A stretch of 33,875 nt of DNA, from the NCBI GenBank assembly GCA_013151745.1, contig JAADHS010000094.1, positions 1 through 33,875 of the forward strand. The letters run 5' to 3'. Positions 22,628 to 24,459 of this stretch are shown here, in pieces. The translations under genes were made by a program, and so were the position numbers. Each line of letters opens with the position of its first letter. Position 1 is the first letter of the stretch. The DNA comes from Gammaproteobacteria bacterium (GTDB taxonomy: Bacteria > Pseudomonadota > Gammaproteobacteria > JAADHS01). The notes beneath the pieces are model-generated. The model was not told where the DNA came from and did not search any database. It saw only the letters and a program-made list of their open reading frames with translations.

Positions 22628-23272
22628 TTATCTTCCACATAGATGTTTTAATCCCGGATGTATTTTTAATCGTTCGTAGTCTTCAGGACGATCGATATCC
22701 CAGAGTGTGTCTAGTTCGCAATAACGAAGTTTTGCTTTGTTTATGATTTGTCGTGTTTGTGAAAGCACGTTATCGTGTCCCCAGTTGATCCTTTTGAAAA
22801 TCTTAGGTTGGGGGGCAGCGAGTCCTAATAAGGCATAGCCTCCATCTTCTGCTGGTGAAATAACGGCATCATAAGCGTGCTGTAATTTTTCTAGTGCATG
22901 CTCTATATCTGAAATACTCAAAATGGGGCAATCCGTCCCCAGAATAATAGCAAAACGACTGTATTGTAGCGTTTCATTGAAAGCATGAGTCATGCGTTCG
23001 CCCAATGTATTTCCTTGTTGTACTTTTAAAGCGACATTGTATTTTTGCTCGCAGAATTTAAAAAAAGCATGTTTACAATTAGGTGCGCACCACAGCTCAA
23101 TATTGTTTGGTTTGCCTTTTGTTACGATTGATAAGGTGTGCTCAACCAGCCGTCGATGTAACTCGGTGGCTTGCTCTGCTTGAAGATAAGGAATAAGTCG
23201 AGTTTTGACCTGACCGGCTACGGGCGCTTTGGCAAAGATGATAATAGAGCAATGGTGTTTAGGAGTGGGCAT
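22628..23272 (-). CDS. TIGR04282/DUF2064 arsenosugar-associated glycosyltransferase
   Basis: 214 residues. It has a nucleotide-diphospho-sugar transferase fold: IIFAKAPVAGQVKTRLIP (residues 10-27) is the family start, GTDCPILSISDIEHAL carries the metal-binding Asp region, and SPAEDGGYALLGL is the DUF2064 hallmark. In other genomes this family sits beside arsS and is assigned to (oxo)arsenosugar biosynthesis. Here it lies 215 bases downstream of arsS on the same strand, separated by a palindromic element. The start ATG at 23272 has no strong ribosome site. Confidence 0.88.
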   Translation of the reverse strand: MPTPKHHCSIIIFAKAPVAGQVKTRLIPYLQAEQATELHRRLVEHTLSIVTKGKPNNIELWCAPNCKHAFFKFCEQKYNVALKVQQGNTLGERMTHAFNETLQYSRFAIILGTDCPILSISDIEHALEKLQHAYDAVISPAEDGGYALLGLAAPQPKIFKRINWGHDNVLSQTRQIINKAKLRYCELDTLWDIDRPEDYERLKIHPGLKHLCGR

Positions 23273-23294: not shown

Positions 23295-23460
23295 TATATA
23301 CCCGTAACGATTAAAATTCAGGTGTGATTGCACACCCTCTTCATTCCCTGGCTACGTTGAAATTCCTCGCAATAACCCGCTATTACTCGTCATTTCGCCT
23401 TGTCAGGAAATGAATAGGTCACACACTCAGAACCTAAATCTCAAACGCTACGGGTATATA
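23295..23460. repeat. 166-bp imperfect palindromic element
   Basis: The arsS to DUF2064 gap is almost entirely one length-symmetric palindrome. The outer 12 bases, TATATACCCGTA (23295-23306) and TACGGGTATATA (23449-23460), are exact complements, and the outer 29 bases match at 24 positions. The centre AATAACCCGCTATT (23371-23384) is also close to self-complementary, and the intervening arms pair with small shifts (TTCATT against AATGAA). The left arm carries its own hairpin, GGTGTG ATTG CACACC (23321-23336). No open reading frame is present. The structure suits a MITE-like or REP-like mobile palindrome, and the transcript would fold into a long stem. Confidence 0.75.
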
Positions 23461-23487: not shown

Positions 23488-24459
23488 TCATGATTCGTTT
23501 AATGCGCCGCCGCAACTACTGCCCTGACCCGCAGTACAGCCGTAACAATGGTCGCCAATGATAATGGCATTGTTTTCTAGCATGGCCGGAGAAAGTTCGC
23601 TGATATGACTGCGTATTTTGCCTTGGGTCTGTAAATTAAGTCCCAGCATCTGGTTGAAGTCGCAGTCGTAGGTATAGCCCTGCCAGTCTATGCTCAGCAA
23701 AGTGCGGCACATGACGGAATCCAGATTACTTTTTTTATAGGCCGTTTTCAGCGTGTGCATATAGCTGTCAAAGAGACCTTTCGAGATTAAGATACTGCCG
23801 AAACGTTGTATGGGCATATTGGCAATGGTAAAAAGATGGTTAAATTTAATGTTGAACTCATCCCGTAAATGTTGTTTATAGGCGTGTTCCAATTCTTCCT
23901 GAGGGGGGGGGAGATTTATCTCTTGAGGGTTAAAAACCAAATTTAAAATCAACCCTGAGTTGGATTGGCCATAGCCCCGTTCGTTGAGTTTTTTTAGGCC
24001 TTGAATGCTGGCCAAAAAAGTACCTTTACCGCGTTGTTTATCGACATTGTCAGCAAGGTAGCAGGGTAGTGAGGCGGTGATTTCGACTTTTTGTTGAGCG
24101 AGAAAATCAGCAAGCTGTTCATAGCCCGGCTCACACAAAATAGTTAAATTGCAACGATCTATTACGCGTACATTCAGGGCTACCGCTTGTTTTACCAGGT
24201 ATTCAAAATGCGGGTTCATTTCCGGGGCGCCGCCCGTTAAATCCAGGGTCTGAATACGGGGGTTGTTGCGTAAAAAACTTAATATATGCTCGATATTATC
24301 CATCGACATGAGTTCAGTTCGCTTAGGTCCGGCATTGACATGACAGTGAACGCAGGACTGATTGCAGAGATAGCCTAGGTTGACTTGTAGCGTTTCCAGG
24401 TTTTTTCTTCTCAGAGGTGGAAAATCTGTTTCTTGTAATAAAGGTAGAGTGGCATGCAT
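23488..24459 (-). CDS. arsS: Arsenosugar biosynthesis radical SAM protein ArsS
   Basis: 323 residues. The radical SAM motif is CNQSCVHC (Cys32, 36, 39) followed by HVNAGPKR, typical of ArsS. It also has LDLTGGAPEMNPHF (GGE-like SAM-binding region) and SLPCYLADNVDKQRGKGTF. The C-terminal DUF3641-like domain ends in a cysteine cluster, HCYGCTAGQGSSCGG. ArsS acts after As(III) methylation by adding the 5'-deoxyadenosyl group to give arsenosugar precursors; no arsM is in the window. AAAGGGCG precedes the ATG at a suitable distance. The gene starts 21 bases after the pyrK stop, so it probably reads from the pyr operon transcript. Confidence 0.92.
   Translation of the reverse strand: MHATLPLLQETDFPPLRRKNLETLQVNLGYLCNQSCVHCHVNAGPKRTELMSMDNIEHILSFLRNNPRIQTLDLTGGAPEMNPHFEYLVKQAVALNVRVIDRCNLTILCEPGYEQLADFLAQQKVEITASLPCYLADNVDKQRGKGTFLASIQGLKKLNERGYGQSNSGLILNLVFNPQEINLPPPQEELEHAYKQHLRDEFNIKFNHLFTIANMPIQRFGSILISKGLFDSYMHTLKTAYKKSNLDSVMCRTLLSIDWQGYTYDCDFNQMLGLNLQTQGKIRSHISELSPAMLENNAIIIGDHCYGCTAGQGSSCGGALNES

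Follow-up and report, generated by a model that had tools for sequence, protein, structure and literature searches.

An IS630-type MITE between arsS and a DUF2064 gene carries a conserved core hairpin that is probably a functional module

The large palindrome found between arsS and a DUF2064 gene in Gammaproteobacteria bacterium (assembly GCA_013151745.1) is best explained as an IS630-type MITE carrying a conserved core hairpin, probably a functional module, and we regard this overall reading as very likely. The DNA analysed is contig JAADHS010000094.1, positions 1 to 33,875 (33,875 nucleotides, hereafter the window). For the 158-bp element taken by itself, the assignment to MITEs of IS630 type is nearly certain, since it has what such a MITE should have: shared terminal inverted repeats, a TA duplication and short non-coding dispersed copies. 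Furthermore, the core is also found in palindromic elements with other ends, and it is therefore probably a functional module and not filler. The features are the following:

22628 to 23272, minus strand: gene of a DUF2064 / TIGR04282 family glycosyltransferase, downstream neighbour, outside the element (TIGR04282, E 4e-60; PF09837)
23297 to 23298, no strand: left copy of the TA target-site duplication (composition of 194 termini; nested empty/filled site in locus L046)
23297 to 23322, plus strand: left terminal inverted repeat including the TA, TATACCCGTAACGATTAAAATTCAGG (outer helix of the family structure; IS630 end match in L158, L161 and L173)
23299 to 23456, no strand: mobile unit, 158 bp, TACCCG...CGGGTA, a non-coding palindromic MITE (about 40 listed copies, about 130 estimated from termini)
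23321 to 23336, no strand: small perfect hairpin GGTGTGATTGCACACC in the left arm
23343 to 23410, plus strand: conserved core hairpin, GGCnGCGTT...GCAATAG/CTATT...CGCCTTGCC (model R2, covariation and phylum genomes; common to elements with unrelated ends)
23433 to 23458, minus strand: right terminal inverted repeat including the TA, reading inward TATACCCGTAGCGTTTGAGATTTAGG (outer helix of the family structure; IS630 end match)
23457 to 23458, no strand: right copy of the TA target-site duplication (composition of termini; nested site)
23488 to 24459, minus strand: arsS, arsenosugar biosynthesis radical SAM protein, upstream neighbour, outside the element (TIGR04167, E 9e-137)

The palindrome described at 23295-23460 in an earlier note on this DNA is real. 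All 12 terminal bases and 24 of the 29 outer positions match, and its 43 ungapped palindromic matches out of 83 are the highest count among all 166-bp stretches of the window, the runner-up having 40. The window has a single 12-bp inverted repeat with a span of 100-250 bp, versus 0.12 in shuffles. The palindrome folds at -20.5 kcal/mol as DNA (z -3.65) and at -72 kcal/mol as minus-strand RNA (z -8.6), the transcript fold that the note had proposed to compute. The outermost TA pairs belong to the flanks: the mobile unit is limited to the 158 bp at 23299-23456, between the duplicated TA at 23297-98 and 23457-58, and no listed ORF of at least 60 aa lies over it. The nested perfect hairpin that the note had placed in the left arm is indeed present, but it is specific to this copy and absent from the family consensus.

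Many other copies of the element were found. In its own genome, BLAST gave about 40 scored places at 87-96% identity, and a paired-end pattern gave 38 exact elements versus 0 in the control. A 13-base terminus allowing at most one mismatch occurs 263 times there, versus 7 times in the reversed control, indicating roughly 130 elements in the genome. Many copies are also carried by a genome of the same family (G001, about 83% identity), six matches were found in a genome of another family (G053), and the exact terminus is present in about twelve named gammaproteobacterial assemblies, all of them MAGs; the genomes searched are mostly fragmentary MAGs. Searches of phages, plasmids and viral contigs with the element gave no match. 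Among copies with enough flanking sequence, 59 out of 60 are intergenic, i.e. overlap by at most 60 bp any open reading frame of at least 90 aa. The core is evenly oriented relative to tandem genes (19 same, 18 opposite).

Elements usually span 158-165 bp and some variants are longer. For instance, M_MetaBat.56 has copies of 250-261 bp (L052 7597-7848, L061 1180-1429, L072 3939-4199), two of which (L052 and L072) carry in one arm an extra block of about 90 bp with CTGCATCCATGCAG and CTGCATCCCTGCAG hairpins. An extra block resembling CCTAAAAGCGCCTACTTTTGGTG also occurs in one arm at L103 6311-6510, L121 1432-1621 and L196 near 1550-1613, in two genomes. Other copies are internally deleted and keep both ends (L105 3435-3510, 76 bp; L064 2095-2207, 113 bp). 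At L070 (about 1387-2050), a gene resembling a REP-associated tyrosine transposase (MARLPRFVIPGQPQHVIQRGNNR..) lies a few hundred bases from an element terminus.

The ends point to the mode of insertion. Out of 194 termini, 190 consist of TA followed by TACCC, with A or C preceding the TA, and the four-base target is (A/C)TA(T/G) in 74 cases out of 79. IS630 elements prefer CTAG and duplicate the TA; these termini and this target therefore fit IS630. Moreover, one copy (L046, 1231-1394) is nested inside another repeat. Its flanks, joined with a single TA, align to about a dozen other copies of the host repeat, mostly at 90-96% over about 165 bp and several without gaps. This direct empty/filled comparison shows that TA is duplicated on insertion, the target-site duplication that the note had suggested looking for. 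As for the window's own site, arsS adjoins the DUF2064 gene without the element in the relatives NVTY, QIHH and QIJH, so that the absence proposed as a check is borne out. In these relatives (L139, L141, L142), the gap contains a different short palindromic repeat-like sequence (..GGCCTGCGCCGGAATGACG..), suggesting that it may have been colonised by different repeats.

When transposase genes were sought between paired ends in the fetched loci, the pairs obtained were due to chance only; a search for the IS630 family then gave the partner. The element's own genome encodes an IS630 transposase (G000:C221, L173; NF033545, 203 bits) whose gene is preceded by the left end TATACCCGTAGCGATTGAGAATTAGGTTTAA. 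It is the only IS630 copy of this genome with a fully matching end, and it runs into the contig end a few bases past the transposase gene, so that its right end is cut off. Two relatives, L158 (1123 bp) and L161 (1134 bp), are complete IS630 elements with such ends on both sides, and the L173 and L161 transposases, which belong to the NF033545/PF13358 families, are 89% identical. IS630 ends match MITE ends at up to 29 of 31 positions. The note's MITE reading thus agrees with the many copies in the genome and its relatives, the TA target duplication and an insertion sequence with matching ends, and judging from these ends the IS630 transposase would move the MITE in trans. Model R2 did not find the core inside the IS630 elements, its one good match among those loci (L157, 118-185) being outside the transposase gene. 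In genomes with other end types, the IS630 copies do not have those ends.

The symmetry of the element is conserved. In an alignment of 16 representatives made without reference to structure, both partners have changed in 13 of the 47 pairs, amounting to 33 cells versus 8.2 +/- 2.7 in shuffles and 1-6 with partners slid. This excess indicates that selection or templated repair maintains the symmetry. Hence copies are numerous and symmetry persists with compensatory changes, the opposite of the findings that the note had named as refuting its reading.

The centre of the element extends well beyond this family. R1, a model built from this element family alone, detected palindromes in 58 of the 369 genomes searched within the class, many of them with quite different ends, for instance TAAGGGCACCTCTATTAATT, CTAGGGGGCGTTCTCAATCACC, CTAGTGTCCTTTAACGCAAG, GGACCCTGGTC and TATACCCATCACGGACAGG. 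These share the centre GGCnGCGTTGC...CCTnGCAATAGnnCnnCTATTnC...GCGCCTTGCC. A further end type, GGAAGCTCTGAACAAGTC, was found with R2, a 69-position model of the core. In all, the core at 23343-23410 is found in palindromes bearing about ten or more further end types, as grouped by eye. R2 scores 70.4 bits in the window (E 2.6e-20). With a cut-off of E 0.001, it matches 99 of the 398 Pseudomonadota genomes sampled, frequently in many copies, E-values of such home-made models being rough. It also matches Cupriavidus plasmids. Family f207, outside the class, accounts for close to half of the core-positive phylum genomes. G001 contains at least two end types with this kind of centre, TATACCCG and TAGGGCC(A/G)CGG, and a third core-bearing repeat type (CGCCTGGCTGCGTTGCAAAAACTT...GCCTTGCCAGGCGA) is present at L120 10-78 and L095 1140-1208. 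The end GGAAGCTCTGAACAAG resembles those of MITEPsy1/ISPsy2 of the IS5 family, GGAAGGTCTGAAAAAGCC (PMC3189936), a resemblance that we consider as a lead only.

In 74 distinct rows of the core, 202 cells have changes on both sides versus 46.9 +/- 5.3 after shuffling, with a covariation score of 0.461 versus 0.145 (0.06-0.08 when slid); alignment A3 was fitted to the model and is thus biased towards the structure, A1 and A2 being not so fitted. Core positions that are unpaired or pair only by wobble (GTT, CTTG) are among the most conserved, and conservation is higher in the core than at the ends, contrary to what an ordinary MITE shows. That the centre recurs with unrelated ends in roughly one in four of the phylum genomes sampled suggests that it has a role of its own. 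In Rfam, the window region has no match at E 1, and the other elements have none above a family cut-off; L197 677-864 has a sub-threshold full-length match to the Yersinia sRNA Ysr276 (43 bits, E 1.8e-9, gathering 100). A search of the open-access literature on the core hairpin gave nothing relevant, and an earlier description may exist.

One strand is consistently favoured. Taken as RNA, the strand starting GGCAAGGCG is the more stably folded of the two in all 16 full elements, by a mean of 25 kcal/mol. This minus strand also folds better in 73 of 79 cores, including 50 of the 53 with other ends, and in the window it is the transcribed strand of arsS and of the DUF2064 gene. Full elements show 123 G-U versus 38 A-C mismatches on the minus strand. 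Cores alone show no such excess (91 versus 102), which suggests that the asymmetry of the core stems from its loops. As predicted from folding, the asymmetry favours a single-stranded role, be it of RNA or of single-stranded DNA, between which it does not separate.

The main competing explanation is that the core has no function and was kept solely by common descent and arm-to-arm templated repair, in a single ancient MITE superfamily in which ends and transposases drifted together. Template switching is known to correct quasi-palindromes and also yields changes on both sides, and MITEs spread without needing function; hence, the palindrome could be kept by templated repair between its arms instead of selection. 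However, high conservation of non-pairing or wobble-only positions is not accounted for in this way, a consistent strand asymmetry is unexpected from symmetric repair, and conservation of the core above the ends is the reverse of what an ordinary MITE shows. We give this explanation about one chance in three, and we consider it rather probable, from the comparison of sequences, that the core is under selection for its structure. A bolder proposal, which we put forward tentatively, is that the core might be an independent module of one fixed strand (RNA or single-stranded DNA), captured repeatedly by many transposable ends across Pseudomonadota (among them IS630-type TATACCC, TAGGGCC(A/G)CGG and GGAAGCTCTGAACAAG, the last resembling IS5-type ends), of which ERIC would be the best-known member.

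A somewhat weaker alternative is that the element is an ERIC, or a direct member of the ERIC family occurring outside enterobacteria and vibrios. ERIC (also IRU or RU-1) is intergenic, has the same TATACCC...GGGTATA ends and TA duplication, and forms a stable hairpin that favours the same strand in six ERICs out of six. It has the arm motifs GGCTGCGTT and CGCCTTGC in the same order, shared with the element at 0.003-0.02 by shuffling (jointly in 12 of 4000 shuffles for E. coli and 91 of 4000 for Salmonella), and mirrored GCGTT/GCCTT is present in three of six ERICs (about 0.001 by chance). However, ERIC is only 127 bp long versus 158-166 bp here, most of its interior does not align, and the core model, which misses ERIC, gives 6.7 bits (E 0.59) on one of them. 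Membership is thus unproven from these sequences, and we judge it unlikely.

Other known repeats are similar in organisation. RUP from Streptococcus pneumoniae is a 107-bp MITE attributed to IS630-Spn1 and, according to the literature, is likewise small, non-coding and palindromic, with a TA target and ends common to an IS630-family insertion sequence; it belongs to another host and has no known sequence relation to our element, which has a 158-bp unit and a core common to several end types. Correia elements (NEMIS) from Neisseria, another host, are MITEs with TA ends whose transcribed hairpins are cut by RNase III. By analogy, the element may work like RUP or Correia elements. YPAL (RU-2) from Yersinia, of about 168 bp, is similar in length, palindromic and intergenic, but has target duplications of 3-26 bp, internal inverted repeats, no TA at its termini and no mirrored arm motifs; the TA termini and 2-bp duplication found here exclude it. 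REP and BIME (PU) sequences are also intergenic imperfect palindromes, and their asymmetric GCG/CTT stem part is alike (GGATGCGGCG...CGCCTTATCC), which is a lead only. They are 20-40 bp long, carry a GTAG or CGTC tag, depend on a tyrosine transposase (RAYT) and lack TA-flanked terminal inverted repeats, whereas the unit studied here is about 160 bp (158 bp in the window) with terminal inverted repeats of 26-30 bp (26 bp in the window) and a TA duplication. The REP-type element also envisaged in the earlier note, and likewise REPIN, were therefore rejected. Integron attC sites were dropped, RYYYAAC/GTTRRRY boxes being not apparent on inspection.

Finally, it is very improbable that the palindrome originated on the spot as a local regulatory device (terminator or attenuator) of the arsS-DUF2064 operon: it does sit between both genes, with a strong fold as transcribed-strand RNA and two weak terminator-like matches, but its main hairpin has no T tract after it, and we rejected a terminator or operon-specific origin because the element belongs to a set of about 130 dispersed copies and the three relatives lack it in this gap. 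Regarding the control of the downstream gene that the note considered, no promoter-like site was found in the palindrome region, and copies have no preferred orientation towards neighbouring genes.

We thus return to the IS630-type MITE with a conserved core. An IS630-family transposase acting in trans would have inserted it at a TA in the gap between these two neighbours, arsS and DUF2064, duplicating this TA. The core would then work in single-stranded form, on one strand only. The simplest setting for this would be read-through transcripts, in which a stable hairpin may shield or mark the RNA, so that the host tolerates the insertions. An action on RNA is a possibility that we favour less than selection on the structure and that is based on predicted folds; copies in both orientations relative to neighbouring genes argue against a simple role as terminator or mRNA tail.

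To our knowledge, ERIC has no autonomous partner. With the IS630 partner described here, there is a definite transposase that could be tested on ERIC-like elements; the literature consulted does not name the enzyme that moves these. Moreover, the common view of MITEs is that only their ends are conserved, while the interior decays as filler. The present elements instead have variable ends around a conserved centre that shows compensatory changes. Hence, the role of small intergenic palindromes becomes a testable question.
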